Positions 3,714 to 27,184 of a stretch of DNA of 64,000 bases are shown piece after piece. Origin of the DNA: Corticibacter populi (lineage in GTDB: Bacteria; Pseudomonadota; Gammaproteobacteria; Burkholderiales; Burkholderiaceae_C); the NCBI RefSeq assembly GCF_004217315.1, contig NZ_SGWR01000001.1:496001-560000 (forward strand), written 5' to 3'. A model generated the notes under the pieces. It searched no databases. It was not told the origin of the DNA and was given only the letters and a program-made list of their open reading frames with translations. A program made the translations under genes and the position numbers. The number at the start of each line of letters is the position of its first letter. Position 1 is the stretch's first letter.

Positions 3714-4213
3714 GCGCAGACATGTGGCAAGACTGGATGCATCACCTGCTGGCATGGCTGGCATTGCCCGAATACGGGCTCTCCACGGTATTCGTGGTGG
3801 CCTTCCTCTCGGCGACCCTGCTGCCCCTGGGCTCGGAGCCCGCCGTGTTCGGGCTGATCCAGCTCAATCCTGGCTTGTTCTGGCCCACCATCGCGGTTGC
3901 CACGCTGGGCAATACCTTGGGCGGCTGTCTGAGCTGGTGGATGGGTCTGGTGGCGCATCGCGCCGTGGACCGCCGCCGGGATCAGCAGCTGCGCAACCCC
4001 AAGGCCTTGCGATGGTTGGAACGCTTTGGCGCCAAGGCCTGCTTCCTGAGCTTTCTGCCGGTGGTGGGCGATCCGTTGTGTGCCGTGGCTGGCTGGCTGC
4101 GCCTGCCGTTCTGGCCTTGCTCGCTGTACATGGCCGCTGGCAAGTTCCTGCGTTATGTGGTGATGACCTGGCTGCTGATGCAGGCAGTGCACGCCGGCCA
4201 GCATTATTGGTAA
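3710..4213 (+). CDS. YqaA/DedA-like SNARE-associated inner-membrane protein
   Basis: This is a membrane protein of about 167 residues with several hydrophobic segments. It has the VTT-type core (EYGLSTVFVVAFLSATLLPLGSEP near the N-terminus, then a re-entrant stretch and SFLPVVGDPLCAVAGWLRL). This matches the YqaA branch of the DedA/SNARE-associated family, whose members are linked to phospholipid handling and envelope integrity. The start is uncertain: GTG at 3710 overlaps the dehydrogenase stop as GTGA, GTG 3704 is also open, and ATG 3722 would shorten it by four residues. The overlap suggests co-translation with the aldehyde dehydrogenase. Confidence 0.8.
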   Translation: MSADMWQDWMHHLLAWLALPEYGLSTVFVVAFLSATLLPLGSEPAVFGLIQLNPGLFWPTIAVATLGNTLGGCLSWWMGLVAHRAVDRRRDQQLRNPKALRWLERFGAKACFLSFLPVVGDPLCAVAGWLRLPFWPCSLYMAAGKFLRYVVMTWLLMQAVHAGQHYW

Positions 4214-4328: not shown

Positions 4329-4964
4329 TCACTTCGATTGAGCGGCTTCGTAGCGCTTGGCGACCTCGCCCCAATTGACCACGTTGTAGAACGCGCCGAT
4401 GTATTCGGGGCGGCGGTTCTGGTAGTGCAGGTAGTAGGCGTGCTCCCAGACGTCAAGGCCCAGGATGGGCGTGTTGCCGGAGCCGATGCCGGTCATCAGC
4501 GGGCTGTCCTGGTTGGCACTGCTTTCGACCAGCAGCTTGCCGCTCTTGTCGCTCGAGAGCCAGGCCCAGCCGCTGCCGAAGCGGGAGACGGCGGCCTTGG
4601 TGAAGGCTTCCTTGAAGGCTTCGAAGCCGCCCAGATCACGGGTGATGGCATCGGCCACGGCACCGGTGGGTTCGCCACCACCACCCTGGCCGGCAGGGGC
4701 CAGCACCGTCCAGAACAGCGAGTGGTTGGCATGGCCGCCGGCATTGTTGCGCACGGCCGTGCGGATCGACTCGGGCAGCTTGTCGAGTTTGGTGATCAGT
4801 TCTTCGGCGCTCTGGCCGTCCCACTCGGTGCCTTTGACCGCAGCTGCTAGGTTGTTGATGTAGGTCTGGTGGTGCTTGGTATGGTGGATTTCCATGGTCC
4901 TCGCATCGATGTACGGCTCCAGGGCATCGTAGGCATACGGCAGGGGCGGAAGTGTGTAGCTCAT
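4329..4964 (-). CDS. sodA: Superoxide dismutase, Mn-type
   Basis: The enzyme converts superoxide to oxygen and hydrogen peroxide in the cytoplasm. The 211-residue protein starts [20 protein letters not shown] and has metal ligands at His27, the His in HANHSLFW, and Asp/His in [19 protein letters not shown]. The blocks [23 protein letters not shown] and NQDSPLM match SodA (Mn) rather than the NHTFYW/FGSGWTWL blocks of FeSOD. Metal use can still vary (cambialistic forms exist). A clear AAGGA ribosome site precedes the ATG at 4964; the frame is open further upstream but without support. It is transcribed alone, convergent with the YqaA-like gene. Confidence 0.93.
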
Positions 4965-7118: not shown

Positions 7119-10376
<3,258 letters not shown>

Positions 10377-17280: not shown

Positions 17281-19809
17281 CTACACCAGCTCCAGCACCG
17301 GATTGCTCGGCGGCACCGGCTGCACGAAACGTCCCGGCTCGACCAACACCACGGTCGACAAGTGGCTGACGACCTGCTCGCCACGCTTGATCGCAAAGCG
17401 CACGATGTTGGTCTTGTTCGGACCCGGCAAGTGCCAGGCAGCCTTGATGACCGCTCGCTGCACCTGCGTGGCCAGCTCCGGGATCTTGTGGGCCTCGGGC
17501 GTGAGCGTGCCGGCGTACAGCTTGAAGATCAGCGGCGAGACCAGCGCCATGCCTTGCGGCACGAAATGCACGGCCGCTCCGGTCTCGTTGTACTTGATCT
17601 CGCGGTCCACCAGCGACTGCTGCAACCATTCGATGAAGTCGAGAGCCAGCTGCGAGGGCTCGGGCGGCGTGGTTGCGGCCGCTCCGGGAATCTTTGGCAG
17701 TTTGGGCCGCAGAATGACGGGCTCCGGCCCCAATGTGGCTTCAGCGGCTTCGCCGGAGGCATCCGAGGAAATTGGCGCAGTTTCGTGATCGCAACCAGGT
17801 CTTGCGGCTGGCTCCGGATCGACGGCCGCACTGCTGCGTGCGGTCACTGGCGCCGGTTTGCCCAGCACCACGCCTGGCAAGGTTTTACGCGGCTGCAGCG
17901 GCTTGAGCGGCGCCAAGGGCTGCAGCGGCTGCAAGCGTGGCGCGGGCGGCATCGACGCGGCATGTGCAGCCGCTGCAGCTGCGCCAGTTTCGTGATGATT
18001 GGCCTTCGGCGCAGTTGTTGCATCCTCATGCTGGCCAGGCCTCGCCGCAGCTGCGGGCGGCTTCGCCGGTGCCGTTCTGGCCGTCACCATCGCCTCCTCG
18101 AACACCGGTGCGTCCAGCAGGTCTGCCGCATCCTCGGCACTGACCCGGTTGGCCTTGCGGGTTGCAACAGGTTCAGCCGGCTGACGTTCCGCTGCTCCAT
18201 GCTTGCCCGAACCAGAAACTGCTGCAGCTTTGTTTGCCGTGGGTTTGCCTGCTGCAGGCTTGGGCTTGTTGAAGGCCGGCTCGCGCACGGCTGCGGCCTT
18301 GTTGAAACTCGGCTCCTTCACGGAAGGTTTGGAAACTGGCGCATGCTCGCGCTTCTTGCCCGAACCTGATTCAGCCTTCTGTGTGCTGGCTTGTGTGCTG
18401 ACTTCGGCATGACCTGGTTCAGTGTTCAGGACACCATCGTCAGCCGTTGCTGCAGCGCCTGCAGGATCTGGCTCTTCCTGGACGGATGCCGCATCCTTGG
18501 ATTCCTTGACCTCGATGTAGCCCTGCATCGGCTCCGGGTAGTGCTCGGGATCCGCGAACACTTTTGCAAGAGGGAACTTGAGCATCGAGAGCGAATGCGT
18601 GTAAGCGCCCTGCTCCTGGCCGTCTGCGGCCTGGCCATGCACGGCGACATGCCAGATGGCCTGGCCCGAGTGCGGATTGCGCTCGATGAGGCCATAGTCC
18701 TGCCAGGTGTCGAACAGGCGATCGTTCTTGGTCTCACCCGGCACGGTCTGATCGGGCTCATTCTTCTGAATCCAGTCGCGGGTCGCGTCCGCCAGACGCT
18801 TGGCGACGAACCAGATCGCGCCGTCATGGACCCAGCCGGCCGCGCCGCTGCGATTGAGCGGCAGGCTGGTGCCGCCGCGCAGCATTGCGCCAATGGCCTG
18901 CATCAGCAGATCGATGAGCGGCACGGCCTTGGCAGTGGCAAAGCGCGCCTGGCTGCCGCTCTGCAGTGCCCGCCTCGCCGACAAGGCGTCGGCTCGGCGC
19001 ACCAGCTGGGCGACCAGGCTGCCCTTGTCCTGGCCCGAGAGATAGAGGTTGAGCGCATCGAGCGCACGCGGCTGTGTCGAGAGGAACGCCATGGCCGAGG
19101 ACGGCGCTATGGCCGGCAGCAGCAGCTGGGCCATTCTGGAGTGGGCCGAGTAGTCGCGGGCGGCCTTGGGCGTGAAATCGACCAGGTACTCGGCGCCTGT
19201 GGTGCTGGCGTGGCCGGCCACTTGCTTGAGGTTGCCGGCCAGAGGCGCCCAGCGTAGAGGCGTGGCCATGTTGCGCGTGCGCCAGGAGATGCGCAGATCG
19301 GTCATGGGCTTGGCCACGTCGTGCAGCAGCGCCGCGAAGAACACGACATAGGTCCAGTGATCGCGTTGCGTATCGATGACCTCGATCACCTCGCCCTCGG
19401 GCAGCAGATGGCCGTTTCGCCAGGTCAGCGCTGCAAGGACCATCTCCAGCGTGTGCGAGAGTAGCCCGCCGACGTGCGCGTGGTGATGCGCCTCCGACGC
19501 CGGCATCAGCTGCACGAACTCGGCATAGGCGCGCAGTGCCGGCAGAAAGTCGCGGCGAAAGACGGCTTCGGACTGTCTCGATTGCAGCCAGATCTTCTTG
19601 AGGACTTTGCGCGCATGGACGTGGCGCAGCAGCTCGTCGGCGTCTAGGACGCGCAGCCACCCTGCCCGGCTGCCGGCGATCTCGACCTTGAGCGCGTCCT
19701 CGTCCTCATTCTGCGGTGCGGCCGCCGGCGCCGCTGCTGGAACAGGCCCCACTGGCTTGCCCTTGCTCCAGGGCATCATGGACAGCAGCCGCGCGGTGAT
19801 GGATTTCAT
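17281..19809 (-). CDS. ICE relaxase, MobH/TraI_2 family (PFGI-1 class)
   Basis: This is the relaxase that nicks the element at oriT and pilots the strand in conjugation. The 842-residue protein has an N-terminal TraI_2 domain with an HD-type metal site: HHHAHVGGLLSHTLEM near residues 108-123 and LLHDVAKP near 161-168. This is diagnostic of MobH relaxases. The middle (about residues 450-720) is a low-complexity Ala/Lys/Pro linker. The C-terminus (from about 727, LALDFIEWLQQSLVDREIKYN) matches the TraI_2_C domain. The start overlaps the stop of the small gene upstream (ATGA), so it is the last gene of a minus-strand operon. No integrase lies beside it, unlike many related ICEs. Confidence 0.92.
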   Translation of the reverse strand: MKSITARLLSMMPWSKGKPVGPVPAAAPAAAPQNEDEDALKVEIAGSRAGWLRVLDADELLRHVHARKVLKKIWLQSRQSEAVFRRDFLPALRAYAEFVQLMPASEAHHHAHVGGLLSHTLEMVLAALTWRNGHLLPEGEVIEVIDTQRDHWTYVVFFAALLHDVAKPMTDLRISWRTRNMATPLRWAPLAGNLKQVAGHASTTGAEYLVDFTPKAARDYSAHSRMAQLLLPAIAPSSAMAFLSTQPRALDALNLYLSGQDKGSLVAQLVRRADALSARRALQSGSQARFATAKAVPLIDLLMQAIGAMLRGGTSLPLNRSGAAGWVHDGAIWFVAKRLADATRDWIQKNEPDQTVPGETKNDRLFDTWQDYGLIERNPHSGQAIWHVAVHGQAADGQEQGAYTHSLSMLKFPLAKVFADPEHYPEPMQGYIEVKESKDAASVQEEPDPAGAAATADDGVLNTEPGHAEVSTQASTQKAESGSGKKREHAPVSKPSVKEPSFNKAAAVREPAFNKPKPAAGKPTANKAAAVSGSGKHGAAERQPAEPVATRKANRVSAEDAADLLDAPVFEEAMVTARTAPAKPPAAAARPGQHEDATTAPKANHHETGAAAAAAHAASMPPAPRLQPLQPLAPLKPLQPRKTLPGVVLGKPAPVTARSSAAVDPEPAARPGCDHETAPISSDASGEAAEATLGPEPVILRPKLPKIPGAAATTPPEPSQLALDFIEWLQQSLVDREIKYNETGAAVHFVPQGMALVSPLIFKLYAGTLTPEAHKIPELATQVQRAVIKAAWHLPGPNKTNIVRFAIKRGEQVVSHLSTVVLVEPGRFVQPVPPSNPVLELV

Positions 19810-21985: not shown

Positions 21986-22270
21986 ATGGAACAGGATCGG
22001 CTATTCAATTCCCTAAATTCAGTATCGGATGAGTCCTCGTTCGTCCATTTCGTCAAACTGCTGGTTGCGGATAGACAATCCGCGGATCGGTTCCCATTGA
22101 CTATTGACGGATTCCGTGGAGACTGGGCCAACCACACCATCACTGACTTCCTGGAGGCCGCGGTATCATGGGCGGAGGATTCAGATTTTGGCGAACGACC
22201 AGGGCCCAAGCCAAGCAATCCTTGGTACTTATTCGCTTTATTTTTATGGGCGGGGCAAGGCTATGAGTAG
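21986..22270 (+). CDS. Cassette 1: DUF7660-like acidic protein
   Basis: This is a 94-residue protein, MEQDRLFNSLNSVSDESSFV at the N-terminus and AEDSDFGERPGPKPSNPWYL near the C-terminus. The D-FxxF...LxxD and WxxxTIxxFLEA layout is that of small cassette-borne proteins grouped as DUF7660, often found beside toxin or immunity genes; function unknown. It starts only ten bases after the recombination point and has no clear ribosome site, which is usual for cassette ORFs. The stop lies just before the attC site. Cassette 2 is an identical copy. The base composition is less GC-rich than the ICE backbone. Confidence 0.75.
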   Translation: MEQDRLFNSLNSVSDESSFVHFVKLLVADRQSADRFPLTIDGFRGDWANHTITDFLEAAVSWAEDSDFGERPGPKPSNPWYLFALFLWAGQGYE

Positions 22271-22273
22271 CGC

Positions 22274-22333
22274 GCCTAACAATTCATTCAAGCCGACGCC
22301 GCTTCGCGGCGCGGCTTAATTCAGGCGTTAGGC
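22274..22333 (+). repeat. attC site of cassette 1 (60 bp)
   Basis: R'' GCCTAAC, the inner hairpin AGCCGACGCCGC / GCGGCGCGGCT and R' GTTAGGC. This is the typical layout of a single-strand-folding attC. Confidence 0.9.
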
Positions 22334-22337
22334 ACGC

Positions 22338-22622
22338 ATGGAACAGGATCGGCTATTCAATTCCCTAAATTCAGTATCGGATGAGTCCTCGTTCGTCCAT
22401 TTCGTCAAACTGCTGGTTGCGGATAGACAATCCGCGGATCGGTTCCCATTGACTATTGACGGATTCCGTGGAGACTGGGCCAACCACACCATCACTGACT
22501 TCCTGGAGGCCGCGGTATCATGGGCGGAGGATTCAGATTTTGGCGAACGACCAGGGCCCAAGCCAAGCAATCCTTGGTACTTATTCGCTTTATTTTTATG
22601 GGCGGGGCAAGGCTATGAGTAG
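22338..22622 (+). CDS. Cassette 2: identical copy of the cassette 1 protein
   Basis: The 94-residue product is the same as that of cassette 1, and the whole 352-bp cassette, including its attC site, reads as an exact copy. It lies in the same direction, directly downstream. Exact identity points to recent duplication, either by integrase-mediated re-insertion while intI was active or by unequal exchange between the attC repeats. The two copies are separated only by the attC site, so they are a stable substrate for later loss. What this protein does is not known; a gene-dose benefit is speculative. Confidence 0.75.
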   Translation: MEQDRLFNSLNSVSDESSFVHFVKLLVADRQSADRFPLTIDGFRGDWANHTITDFLEAAVSWAEDSDFGERPGPKPSNPWYLFALFLWAGQGYE

Positions 22623-22625
22623 CGC

Positions 22626-22685
22626 GCCTAACAATTCATTCAAGCCGACGCCGCTTCGCGGCGCGGCTTAATTCAGGCGTTAGGC
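22626..22685 (+). repeat. attC site of cassette 2 (60 bp)
   Basis: Same sequence as the site at 22274; R'' GCCTAAC at 22626 and R' GTTAGGC at 22679. Confidence 0.9.
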
Positions 22686-23745: not shown

Positions 23746-24195
23746 ATGCTAAACGAGCTCTCATACAAACTTCTTGTCCGCCCAGGGTCTACCGGCAGCA
23801 CGTCGACGACCGCGAGAACATCCGCTGATTTCCACATTGACGGGGAGTCTCTTCTCCGCACCATTGTCAAACAACATGGCGGCCATGGGGATTTTATGGG
23901 CGCTCTTGTCCGAGGCTACCCAGAGTCCCAAGCAGATGTTGCCAGGCAATTGACGCTGCAGGGCGCGCCTGAATCTGACTCCGGAAGAGTACTTCTTTAC
24001 ATATGCCCAGAGTGCGGCGATATTGGCTGCGGTGCCTACAGTGTTAAGGTAAGTCGGGATCAAAGGACATACACGTGGGGAGACTTCGCCTACGAGAACG
24101 GCTATGAGAACCCTCGCCTATTAGAAACGGTTGGTCCATTTGTATTTGAGGCTATTCAGTATGAGACAGCAGTTGAGTCGGCTAGTGCGCTCTAA
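23746..24195 (+). CDS. Cassette 5: unknown protein with a CPECGDIGCG motif
   Basis: This is a 149-residue protein, with a Ser/Thr-rich N-terminal part, then FHIDGESLLRTIVKQHG and LLYICPECGDIGCGAYSVKV (CxxC at about residues 87-90 with a third Cys at about 94). The C-terminal block WGDFAYENGYENPRLLETVG is rich in aromatic residues. It has no signal peptide and no recognised family. The cysteine cluster suggests a metal site. The stop codon lies inside the R'' core of its attC site, so the ORF fills its cassette completely. No ribosome site is evident. Confidence 0.7.
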   Translation: MLNELSYKLLVRPGSTGSTSTTARTSADFHIDGESLLRTIVKQHGGHGDFMGALVRGYPESQADVARQLTLQGAPESDSGRVLLYICPECGDIGCGAYSVKVSRDQRTYTWGDFAYENGYENPRLLETVGPFVFEAIQYETAVESASAL

Positions 24196-24249
24196 CAATT
24201 CATTCAAGCCGACGCCGCTTTGCGGCGCGGCTTAACTCAGGCGTTAGAA
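24190..24249 (+). repeat. attC site of cassette 5 (60 bp)
   Basis: R'' CTCTAAC (overlapping the cassette 5 stop), inner arms AGCCGACGCCGC / GCGGCGCGGCT and R' GTTAGAA. Confidence 0.9.
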
Positions 24250-24339
24250 TCACCAAAGCAGCAGATCCAAATTATGAGCCAGATGAAAATCTTGTTCAAG
24301 AGGTGCCTGCCAAACGCAAACGTCCTCTGGAGGTGTGGT

Positions 24340-24825
24340 CTCATCGCAGCCCAGGCCGTGCCTGCCGAGAGGCAGGAACAGCGTGTGGAGCTATGACTTT
24401 GTCTATGATGCCTGTGCCAATGGCCAGACACTGAAATGCCTGACCGTGGTCGATGAATACACGCGGTAATGCCTGGCCATTGATGTGGCAGGCAGTATCC
24501 GTGCCAAGCGGGTGATCGACGTACTCAGTTGCCTGGTCAGCCTGCGTGGTGCGCCGAAATATCTGCGCAGCGACAATGGCCCCGAGTTCGTCAGCGCCCA
24601 GCTATTGCAGTGGGCGGTGCAGGAGAGGCTGGAGACGGTGTTGATCGAACCCGGCAAGCCCTGCAGAACGGTACCAATGAGAGCTTCAACGGCAAATTCC
24701 GGGATGAATGCCTGTCCATGGAGCGGTTTCGAAACCGGCTTGAAGCGAGGGTCATCATTGAGGACTGGCGACATCACTACAATGATGTTCGGCCACATTC
24801 CAGCCTGAATTACCTGACCCCATGA
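24340..24825 (+). pseudogene. IS3-family transposase (OrfB) remnant
   Basis: The DDE integrase core of an IS3-family OrfB is readable: WSYDFVYDACANGQTLKCLT, RSDNGPEFVSAQLLQWAV and NGTNESFNGKFRDECLSMER, ending RPHSSLNYLTP. Two lesions inactivate it: a stop TAA at 24467-24469 where the family has Glu, and a one-base deletion near 24663 that turns the GKPWQNG codons into GKPCRT. The N-terminal part, OrfA and both terminal inverted repeats are missing. It breaks the sixth integron cassette. No other IS is recognised in the window. Confidence 0.85.
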
Positions 24826-24920
24826 CAGTTCGTAGGAACACTGACCAATGATTTAACAACCATGGCCTGCGTCTCTAATTCCGATTGGTAGGAAATTTCC
24901 GGGTAGGTCAGTCTTTTTTG

Positions 24921-24948
24921 TGCCTGTTCCAAGCCGCCCCCGGCTTGC
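24921..24948. repeat. 28-bp repeat flanking the integron, right copy
   Basis: Differs from the left copy (21643-21670) at one base and is in the same orientation. Confidence 0.7.
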
Positions 24949-24969
24949 CCATTTGGGTCACACGGATGG

Positions 24970-25000
24970 TACGGAAAAACATATAGTATGGAAAAACATA
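24970..25000. repeat. Pair of 14-bp direct repeats (TAYGGAAAAACATA)
   Basis: TACGGAAAAACATA and TATGGAAAAACATA start 17 bases apart and are framed by ATGGTA and TACCAT. They look like tandem protein-binding sites. Confidence 0.5.
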
Positions 25001-25050
25001 CCATCGCGGCAGCTCCGTCGATCTTCGAAATCACAAGCGATATCAGCGCA

Positions 25051-25461
25051 TTACGCTTTGAGTGATGAAGCGGCTTTCACCTTCTTTGGTCGTACAGGCT
25101 TGGCGTGGCCTGCCTTCTTCAACGCCTTCTGCAATGCGGCCATGCCCTGCCACATTTTCTCGGCTTGGACGGGGGAAATCTCGCCGCCATCAGCGATGTG
25201 CTGCACGACCTGCTGCAGGCTGAACGGCAAGCCATCCGTGCTGTAGCGCCTTCGGAACTCAGTCTGCTCCTGCTCTCTTTGCTTGAAGAACTCCTCTGCC
25301 TGCGTGCGTTCTTCCTCCGTGAGCTTCTCGGCTTCTGCCGCAGGCAATGACGTCATGTACTTGAGGCAGGTCGCAACCACCTTGCCCGATGAACGCTTGT
25401 GCCCGGGGTCATAGGTCGAGCGGATGAACTGGATTTTGCGGCCTTGTTCGCGGATCTGCAT
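25051..25461 (-). CDS. Unknown charged ICE protein
   Basis: This is a 136-residue protein starting MQIREQGRKIQFIRSTYDPG. The N-terminal part (residues 1-40) has a KIQFIRSTYDPGHKR block and then a long, strongly charged helical region (EKLTEEERTQAEEFFKQREQ). The C-terminus is basic (KPVRPKKVKAASSLKA). It has no signal peptide or membrane segment. The N-terminal pattern is seen in small ICE-borne proteins of unknown function. The basic tail would suit nucleic acid binding, which is inference. The gene is downstream of a 140-base nested inverted repeat. Confidence 0.65.
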   Translation of the reverse strand: MQIREQGRKIQFIRSTYDPGHKRSSGKVVATCLKYMTSLPAAEAEKLTEEERTQAEEFFKQREQEQTEFRRRYSTDGLPFSLQQVVQHIADGGEISPVQAEKMWQGMAALQKALKKAGHAKPVRPKKVKAASSLKA

Positions 25462-25495
25462 GGGTCATTCTCCCTTAGCAAGTAGTCAGATCAAT

Positions 25496-25636
25496 ATTCG
25501 TCCGACTACGCGGATTCAATTATATCCTATCAGCAGATGCAATTCAATCCGATGGACATATTAAATATCATCTGTGCAACAGATAGATAAATATCCATCG
25601 ACAGATTGATATGAATCCGAGTAGACGGATGGATTC
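25496..25636. repeat. AT-rich nested inverted repeat (candidate oriT, centromere or operator)
   Basis: The outer copies are 25496-25517 (ATTCGTCCGACTACGCGGATTC-type) and its inverse at 25613-25636 (GAATCCGAGTAGACGGAT...). Inner arms are CCGATGGACATATT near 25549 and AAATATCCATCG near 25590. The centre is ATCTGT-GCA-ACAGAT (25570-25584). The region is clearly AT-richer than the genes around it. Confidence 0.6.
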
Positions 25637-25957
25637 CTATCCATTATGCGAAGGCTTCGTAACCTCCGCAAGGTGCGTAGGATTGGATGGTGCGCCTGGC
25701 TGATTGCGAAAGTGGTCCTGCAGCAACATGCGGAGCTCATCGGTACTCATGCCTGGTCGGATGTCCGTGCGCACTGCTTCGACTTTTGCCCGTACCCACT
25801 CGTCGTACTCACCGTGAGCCAACTCCTGATTTGCCAAGCGCAGCAGCAATTCGACACGCTCAGGACCATGATCTTGCGGGGATATCTGCGACAGCCTCTC
25901 GGCCAACTCTCTCAGGAAACTGGCGTTCTGATAGTGATTTATGGGGCTCATGTCCAT
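25637..25957 (-). CDS. Small helical ICE protein, unknown
   Basis: This is a 106-residue protein beginning MDMSPINHYQNASFLRELAE. AGGA lies about eight bases before the ATG at 25957. It is predicted to be mostly helical and has no signal peptide. The central part (ERVELLLRLANQELAHGEYD EWVRAKVEAV, split here for length) resembles the C-terminal partner-binding segment of some antitoxins, but there is no toxin gene beside it. It stands next to the nested inverted repeat at 25496-25636, so a DNA-binding or partition role is possible. Family not recognised. Confidence 0.6.
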   Translation of the reverse strand: MDMSPINHYQNASFLRELAERLSQISPQDHGPERVELLLRLANQELAHGEYDEWVRAKVEAVRTDIRPGMSTDELRMLLQDHFRNQPGAPSNPTHLAEVTKPSHNG

Positions 25958-26015
25958 GGTGTCTTCCTGCTCTGTATGCCTAATCGCATTTTGACTTATA
26001 GGATTTGAATGGCTT

Positions 26016-26094
26016 TGTCAAGCCGAAACCCGCTTGCACGTGCGGCGGGGTTTCGGCTTGAGACAGTTTTCTCTGATTGCAACACTGGCAGGCA
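26016..26094 (+). promoter_or_regulatory. GCCGAAACCC leader element, copy 2 (79 bp)
   Basis: The arms AAGCCGAAACCC and GGGTTTCGGCTT form a long hairpin, followed by GAGACAGTTTTCTCTGATTG and CAACACTGGCAGGCA. It is 75 of 79 identical to 50379-50457. It stands 77 bases before the first gene of the mating-apparatus operon. Attenuator or regulator site. Confidence 0.75.
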
Positions 26095-26170
26095 TTGGTG
26101 GTGGGCTGTGTTCCCACCGTTGGCCCGTGTCGAAGCGCAGCAGCGGCGGGCAGTTATCCGAGGTCCAGCC

Positions 26171-27184
26171 ATGCAACAGGAAGATCAACAGCAAGAGCCA
26201 GTGGTGGCGCAGCAAGCCATTGAAGACGAGGCGGCGCGCAAGGCTCAATCGGATGCAACAGTCGATCCGCTGCCTGAAGTGGATTTTTTGGAAGGCGCGG
26301 CGGCAGAACCTGCTGATGAGGCGCGTGATGCATCGTCCGAGGGACAGGCGAGCAAGCGCAGCGCTCTGGCTGGTCTGCCTTTCTCGCTCAAGAAGATGGT
26401 CATTGGCTCAGTCATTGCGATTGCTATCGCTGGTGGCGCATCGGCATGGCTGGCTCTGCGTGACCAGGGGCTTGCAGCCCCTCCTGTGGTGCCACAGCCT
26501 GAACTCGCCAGCAGTTTCGAGCCGCTTCCAGCTGACCTGGGCGTCGTCGGCGCAGGCGAGCTGGATCAGACCTTGGCTCTTGAAAGCCCCCCAGCCTCCT
26601 ATGAGGATGATGATGAGGCCCTGACCCACGACATTGGCGTCATCGACCATGTCGCTGCGGGAGATGCCCGCAGCGCAGGTTCATCGATCCCTGCATCCGC
26701 CCAGCAGCTGCAGGCGCTGGAGCAGCAGGTCATGGCATTGCAAAGTGCCCTGGCGCAGCAACAAAGCTGGAACGCAACGCTCGAAGCTGGACTTGTCAAA
26801 GCCGGTCTGCTTCGGCAAGAGGACGGCCAGGCCACGCTGGATGTTCAGCATTTCATCGCTTCGAGTTCATCAGCATCCGCAGCAGCGCCTGCTGCCAAGC
26901 GGGCCATCGTGAGCCGACCTGCCGCACCCAGGCAGCAGCCGCGCCGCGAGGCGGTCGCCAGGGCGCCGGAGCCTGCCGAGCCGCAAGTCAAGCTCGTCTC
27001 GATCGACATGTGGAACGGCCAGCCTTCGGTGGTGGTCGGCACCACCGATACGTCGCTCGGCTACCGCGTGCTGCAGGTCGGCGATTCGACGCGTGGCATC
27101 ACGCTGCAGTCGGCGGATCCCGTCACGCAGACCGCCGTGTTCCTGGTCGGCGGCAAGCCGCAGATCCTGCGCAAAGTGCAGTGA
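26171..27184 (+). CDS. Single-pass membrane protein, first gene of the transfer operon
   Basis: This is a 337-residue protein starting MQQEDQQQEPVVAQQAIEDE at ATG 26171, seven bases after GAGG. It has a cytoplasmic acidic N-terminus (about 75 residues), one membrane segment (MVIGSVIAIAIAGGASAWLA), and then a Pro/Ala-rich periplasmic linker with a Gln-rich coiled coil (LQALEQQVMALQSALAQQQS). A compact C-terminal beta domain follows (VKLVSIDMWNGQPSVVVGTT, ending AVFLVGGKPQILRKVQ). The layout and the end domain resemble PilP-type pilus scaffold proteins, but the family is not certain. As the first gene behind leader copy 2 it may be a structural part of the transfer channel. Confidence 0.7.
   Translation: MQQEDQQQEPVVAQQAIEDEAARKAQSDATVDPLPEVDFLEGAAAEPADEARDASSEGQASKRSALAGLPFSLKKMVIGSVIAIAIAGGASAWLALRDQGLAAPPVVPQPELASSFEPLPADLGVVGAGELDQTLALESPPASYEDDDEALTHDIGVIDHVAAGDARSAGSSIPASAQQLQALEQQVMALQSALAQQQSWNATLEAGLVKAGLLRQEDGQATLDVQHFIASSSSASAAAPAAKRAIVSRPAAPRQQPRREAVARAPEPAEPQVKLVSIDMWNGQPSVVVGTTDTSLGYRVLQVGDSTRGITLQSADPVTQTAVFLVGGKPQILRKVQ

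Follow-up and report, generated by a model that had tools for sequence, protein, structure and literature searches.

An ICE that encodes conjugation proteins and a MobH relaxase of the PFGI-1 class lies in the window, by which we mean the whole 64-kb stretch of DNA analyzed. Within it, an array of palindromes lies upstream of the minus-strand gene 25051–25461 and borders a RelB-like ORF. The features at this locus are as follows.

25051–25461, minus strand: 136-aa protein of an unnamed family, the proposed array binder (profile searches, alignment, structure model)
25487–25642, no strand: whole palindrome array with 14 half-sites, seven 8-bp AT-rich linkers, and six full units
25500–25515, minus strand: unit 6, ATCCGCGTAGTCGGAC in gene orientation (chain-model scan)
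25519–25547, minus strand: predicted sigma-70 promoter TTGAAT-17-TATAAT of the 136-aa gene, 10 of 12 matches
25524–25538, minus strand: unit 5, ATCTGCTGATAGGAT, in the −35/−10 spacer with a one-base overlap with the −10 hexamer
25547–25561, minus strand: unit 4, ATATGTCCATCGGAT in gene orientation (chain-model scan; coordinates from the sequence)
25570–25584, minus strand: unit 3, ATCTGTTGCACAGAT, the core of the first-pass annotation (sequence and chain-model scan)
25593–25606, minus strand: unit 2, ATCTGTCGATGGAT in gene orientation (chain-model scan)
25615–25630, minus strand: unit 1, ATCCGTCTACTCGGAT in gene orientation (chain-model scan)
25637–25957, minus strand: 106-aa RelB/PaaA2-like ORF, its stop codon touching the array edge

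Array geometry and predicted promoter

The first-pass annotation had read positions 25496–25636 as inverted repeats nested around the core ATCTGT-GCA-ACAGAT, which sits at 25570–25584. The outer layer (25496–25518 against 25612–25634, 83% complementary) and the inner layer (25550–25559 against 25591–25600, 90% complementary) do exist and the location holds, but the interval is slightly short at both ends and the region is better described as a tandem array than as a nest. Six palindromic units of 14–16 bp, joined by AT-rich linkers of exactly 8 bp, repeat with a period of 22–24 bp over about 25487–25642; in the orientation of gene 25051–25461 the order is a half-site, units 1 to 6, and another half-site. 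The layers are neighboring units, which pair with one another because they have a common consensus. Further inverted pairs lie off-centre from the core (25511–25526 with 25536–25551, 25583–25599 with 25628–25644, and 25605–25618 with 25631–25644), as expected if similar palindromic units adjoin one another. GC content is 0.387 at 25500–25649 against 0.487–0.667 in the remaining steps of 24000–26949.

Scored as a fixed GGAT-N8-ATCC chain, the array reached 13, whereas none of 200 dinucleotide shuffles exceeded 4, and GGAT/ATCC chains with other linkers (lengths 5 to 11) scored 2 or less. An open scan of 256 half-sites with linkers of 4–14 returned ATCC/8 as the best model, scoring 13 where the highest of 40 shuffles gave 6; the whole-window scan added an eighth linker, up to 25664, that did not raise the array score. 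Scanned for arm complementarity alone, the window array scored 10, where the maximum among 60 shuffles was 11. The next-best ATCC/8 place in the 64-kb window scored 3 and no exact CGGAT-N8-ATCCG occurs elsewhere in it, which argues against the master operator that had been suggested for this site. The array DNA had no match at E ≤ 0.001 in nine other genomes of the same genus; one of these, G188, holds locus L005 (Lampropedia aestuarii), whose array keeps the layout.

The predicted promoter is the sole sigma-70-like site found in 25400–25720, and at 0.7 such sites per shuffle it is weak when taken alone. Its spacer is filled by unit 5, and it would start transcription downstream of five of the six units. 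Across 15 loci, a best-pair search that admits spacers of 16–18 only, and whose counts carry no shuffle baseline, found, ahead of the start codon, a TTG-initial −35 element set 17 bp away from a −10-like hexamer in seven (the window, L011, L015, L017, L018, L019, and L031), six of them with an array. The best pair at the other eight loci was poorer or differently spaced. Taken with conservation of the array upstream of the 25051–25461 family, described below, a unit inside the predicted promoter supports an operator or centromere type of site, as the first-pass annotation had in part proposed.

The 136-aa protein family and its arrays

Neither Pfam nor NCBIfam gave the 136-aa protein a match above curated cut-offs, and 15 family members scanned against both returned weak, scattered matches only. 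Relatives were found on two Lampropedia contigs and in 41 plasmid records (E 0.01), and two relatives used as queries reached 146 and 162 plasmid records (E 0.001). The viral contigs scanned held one relative (L038), while the class and phylum genome samples held, besides the window's own genome, none in 369 and one in 398. AlphaFold2, run with four sequences, predicts a fairly confident monomer (mean pLDDT 86.8, pTM 0.59) with a three-stranded beta sheet within residues 2–33, a long helix at 49–90, and a helix at 97–116. In a Foldseek comparison of this model with PDB and BFVD nothing reached E ≤ 0.001, and the best VIA Z was 3.6, which is no proof of a new fold. The beta sheet may be the DNA-binding part.

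Residues R4, G7, R14, Y17, and R23 are invariant among 15 sequences. R4 and Y17 were rejected as family-wide invariants, L044–L046 having K4 and L047–L049 lacking Y17 (by eye). The idea that residue 6 switches specificity, being Q where the array is ATCC and K in L017, L018, and L031, was also dropped because L044–L049 have Q6 without an ATCC/8 array. Probable remains of an IS3-type transposase adjoin the 136-aa gene at about 24485–24825 of the window (translation, by eye).

The top ATCC/8 array lies directly upstream of the homolog in all ten sources of the ATCC class scanned (the window, L029, L030, L043, L016, L011, L005, L004, L015, and L012, with L030 and L043 being near-copies). L004 and L012 are narrowly above shuffles (7 vs 6), L005 is best as ATCC-N8-GGAT, and L015 scores 11 with ATCC/8 against 12 for shifted versions; L018 has GACC/8. 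As a universal model strict ATCC/8 was rejected: among 17 loci it was not the best in L009, L017, L019, L031, and L038, and it rose above shuffles in none of seven later-fetched loci, which include L050, a near-copy of L044. With a different half-site and linker L047 scored 9, one above its highest shuffle (8), a result not upheld by the general scan.

That general scan, designed after the failures of strict ATCC/8, admits any 4-base half-site with an inner gap of 0–10 and a period of 21–25 in the upstream 170 bp (180 for the window, 191 for L018). Among 23 homologs, counting that of the window, 17 scored above every one of their 60 shuffles, and the scan found no array of 21–25-bp period in the other six (L009, L019, L037, L047, L048, and L049). 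Scores of at least 7 were reached by 16/23 homologs against 7/400 random segments off arrays, which served as the control; two of these seven segments fall inside 136-aa homolog genes (L017 and L047). L021 (where, by eye, the DNA ahead of the match is not conserved), L023 (near-copy of L012), and L006–L008, L025, and L036 (same places as other loci) were dropped before the counts, and L022 and L043 (near-copies of L010) and L050 are absent from the general scan.

The best half-sites were ATCC, GGAT, GATA, and GATT, which represent one class in different registers, along with CGAC in plasmids typed IncQ2 and ACTG, GGTC, CGCA, and AATT. On a protein tree whose deep forks are weak, half-site classes assigned partly by eye were jointly clustered (6 changes against a shuffled mean of 11.7, 0/200 as low), as was the ATCC class alone (3 changes, shuffled mean 7.7, 0/500 as low); the GAC/GTC class of three loci was unclustered (3 changes, shuffled mean 2.9). 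Because array and gene are linked, common descent alone would give the same pattern, as would their joint inheritance together with near-copies. The window protein groups with L011, L004, and L005 (97/97). Comparison of the loci shows that, at the level of sequence, array and gene form one conserved module carried by plasmids, an ICE, and a chromosome-like contig, and the pairing of the array with the 136-aa protein is very probable. No description of the array was found in the portions of the literature covered, including PMC7296055, PMC6015842, PMC3098194, PMC9455977, PMC7414963, and PMC6232296.

Several carriers show further repeats. The array of pPNAP08 (L016, NC_008764.1), a 6.5-kb plasmid, has 20 linkers and that of pSN1216-29 has 12. 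Outside its array pPNAP08 bears isolated exact CGGAT-N8-ATCCG sites at 1113, 3538, and 6365, the first of which falls inside the 136-aa homolog gene. Within the array are two perfect copies of TGTTTCACGTGAAACA, with cores at 460 and 670, each replacing a unit; we take this sequence to be the canonical chromosomal parS. The plasmid has no annotated parA or parB. L015 holds a second short ATCC/8 array (score 8) at 9439–9501, inside an annotated RepB-family primase gene. L038, a 61-kb IMG/VR contig, has AATTACC/GGTAATT-type repeats on both sides of the homolog, at about 3861–3912 and 4409–4442. For pPNAP08, given its three isolated sites, the master-operator question is less clear than for the window, and the second array of L015 is relevant to the same question.

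The protein of 25637–25957 had been put forward as the partner of the site, which is probably wrong: this ORF is RelB/PaaA2-like, with matches to PF21217 and NF050103 that stay below threshold; the array is found on its 3′ side and not upstream, where a type II RelB/RelE operator would precede the antitoxin gene; and L013 and L014, the two relatives with surroundings, carry no ATCC/8 array. Relatives of the ORF adjoin RelE/ParE genes on small plasmids, and no RelE gene was noticed beside 25637–25957 itself. The ORF is probably a remnant and not the binder. Its similarity to relatives ends near residue 84 and its stop codon touches the array, a picture that would fit a junction left by a deletion or insertion.

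Transfer, replication, and hairpin readings

An oriT, also among the first-pass candidates, would make the palindromes the place where the relaxosome of the ICE assembles and its MobH relaxase (17281–19809) binds and nicks. This would suit an element that encodes such a relaxase and conjugation proteins, and the homolog adjoins mobC in IncQ-type relatives. However, the array accompanies the 136-aa gene on MOBP plasmids, the MobH ICE, non-mobilizable-typed records, and the chromosome-like contig, and the relaxase gene lies about 5.7 kb away. In pSN1216-29 the putative nick site is placed in the traK–traJ gap by the published account (PMC6232296); in the plasmid record this gap lies between 5819 and 6217, and the array is elsewhere. 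Because the array occurs with varied relaxases and outside the putative oriT of pSN1216-29, we regard an oriT as highly improbable.

The same plasmid (AP018710) bears on an origin of replication with iterons. According to the covered part of its description, the minireplicon is 1640 bp with repA and iterons downstream of repA (PMC6232296); with repA at 1–1242, it leaves no room for the array at 2207–2478. No rep gene was seen beside the array in the window's ORF list. What speaks for iterons is that some plasmids carry the AT-rich units, each spanning about two helical turns, close to their rep genes; we put the chance of this reading close to negligible.

A third possibility is that the palindromes act as stems, either in a structured RNA or as single-stranded DNA hairpins. 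No covariation was found over ten arrays (262/456 paired against 258.0 re-dealt, p 0.31; L022, a near-copy of L010, left out) or in the window array (25/36 against 23.7, p 0.30). The window has no Rfam match at gathering thresholds (0), and five of the six units lie upstream of the predicted transcript start. On the other side, the arms of L011 pair beyond re-dealing (34/48 against 26.3, p 0.003), as do those of a subset of six arrays including L011 (147/228 against 138.2, p 0.03, among several subsets tried). We judge stems to be extremely improbable. An apparent compensation in L011, ATCCGTCTAGACGGAT beside ATCGCGCTAGAGCGAT, noted by eye as a sign of covarying hairpins, failed re-dealing over ten arrays and was rejected.

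Proposed operator and stability roles

On balance, we favor a reading in which the palindromes would be a multi-copy binding site of the 136-aa protein, acting as an autoregulatory operator and perhaps as a StbA- or ParR-like stability site. A dimer of the protein would probably sit on the rigid half-site pair GGAT-N8-ATCC, and several dimers may line the array, each unit covering about two helical turns. A dimer on unit 5, inside the promoter spacer, would repress the gene. Judged from this layout, autoregulation of the 136-aa gene is likely. The remaining array would build a nucleoprotein complex that aids inheritance, as StbA does on the stbDRs of R388 or ParR on parC. Counting against this reading are the six homologs without such an array, the failure of strict ATCC/8 in the seven later loci, the unclustered GAC/GTC class, and the lack of a recognized DNA-binding fold.

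The 136-aa protein could instead be a pure repressor, whose long cooperative array keeps its own gene and a divergent neighbor low without a role in segregation, its real job being another one, such as DNA transfer or host interaction. The unit in the promoter spacer of the window and some relatives fits such an operator, as do the three isolated exact sites outside the pPNAP08 array and the pSN1216-29-type array between the homolog gene and a divergent toxin–antitoxin operon. So does the Lampropedia aestuarii member, which lies in a chromosomal-looking setting where 0/7 neighbors tested are plasmid genes; a partition role is not obvious there. Yet some arrays seem longer than repression needs (20 linkers in pPNAP08, 12 in pSN1216-29), and a six-gene plasmid keeps the module. 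An operator without any further function appears unlikely, if still a serious contender. That an ICE needs no centromere while integrated also counts against a stability role.

ParA genes accompany the module in some members, and none was found in most records searched. Within the 64-kb window PF13614 (ParA) has no match; the nearest match on the contig is at C1:633417–633962, about 112 kb from the array and possibly in the same ICE, and the best array score in 19 kb around this gene is 2. Among 13 plasmid or phage records with a homolog, PF13614 exceeds the cut-off in four and is absent above it from nine, six with a weak match only and three with none. The weak matches coincide with TraL in annotated maps (checked for L010 and L012). 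In L031 a ParA gene is divergent across the array, L018 has a ParA gene near the module, and L038 has a ParA-like ORF divergent to the homolog in the same place as in L031 (by eye).

Other observations concern the surroundings of these genes. Next to the ParA gene, and near chromosomal genes, the translations show by eye an incomplete near-copy of the middle of the MobH relaxase gene, at L042 9156–9878 (G000:C1 about 634.2–634.9 kb). In G000, the window's genome, which probably shares the family Comamonadaceae with the pPNAP08 host, the best ParA match has a copy of the TGTTTCACGTGAAACA 16-mer about 1.1 kb away. Positions 21986–22671 of the window are a tandem duplication of about 350 bp, in which ORFs 21986–22270 and 22338–22622 translate identically.

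Comparison with known stability systems gives a mixed picture. In the covered sections of its account, the StbA–stbDRs system of R388 (IncW) places a small DNA-binding protein gene beside a repeat array around its own promoter, the array comprising two sets of five 9-bp direct repeats with 2-bp spacing; R388 stability requires StbA and its array, and StbB, which is ParA-like, is dispensable for stability (PMC3098194). The likeness here is one of layout, with a small protein gene adjoining a repeat array around its own promoter. The window differs in having palindromic units of about 23 bp, with inverted half-sites and 8-bp linkers, in place of 9-bp direct repeats 2 bp apart. In ParR–parC-type loci the gene of the centromere-binding protein is autoregulated through repeats placed around its promoter at intervals of about one or two helical turns. 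The window resembles them in its probably autoregulatory repeat array at a promoter, and in some members of the family a ParA gene lies near the array; it differs in lacking a PF13614 ParA and in the predicted form of the 136-aa protein, a beta sheet plus a long helical part. Of the components of ParABS and ParMRC loci, the window thus shows a cis repeat array beside a gene for a small candidate binding protein and, by PF13614, no NTPase gene in the locus. Repeats DR1 and DR2 of RA3 (units of 38, 42, and 60 bp) were considered as a match for the array and set aside.

The closest described carrier is pSN1216-29, where a member of the same protein family (1739–2182, hypothetical protein) has an ATCC/8 array upstream. 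The part of the report covered describes oriV, oriT, and a toxin–antitoxin pair, does not mention the array there, and states that a region like the replication and partition region of pMBUI2 was not found (PMC6232296).

A stability role of the array, argued from analogy and context, is tentative, with chances a little short of even. It rests on the StbA–stbDRs analogy, on the ParA neighbors in L031, L018, and L038 (by eye), on the module kept in six-gene pPNAP08, and on the lack of an annotated ParA/ParB in pSRRSH1521. Against it count the nine of 13 records without PF13614 above the cut-off, the Lampropedia aestuarii member in its chromosomal-looking setting, and the ParA gene 112 kb away on the window's contig. 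In a PFGI-1-class ICE, the window module would act on the integrated and excised forms. A bolder version, which we consider doubtful, is that the 136-aa family comprises unrecognized, ParA-optional centromere-binding beta-sheet proteins whose lineage-specific arrays would be the missing segregation system of plasmids such as the pSN1216-29 family, IncQ-type plasmids, and others. The parS copies of pPNAP08 would then tether it to host ParABS, and the ICE copy would either keep the excised circle stable or act against incoming plasmids.

Carriers of the module include broad-host-range and mobilizable plasmids, some of them from clinical isolates according to the covered part of the source (PMC6232296), and several have no annotated partition gene (e.g., pSRRSH1521, pPNAP08, and pHA020_1). 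If it is indeed a stability system, it would help explain the persistence of such plasmids. It would also add a DNA-binding protein family without a recognized known fold, and the lineage-specific half-sites would offer a natural series for working out how the protein reads its site.
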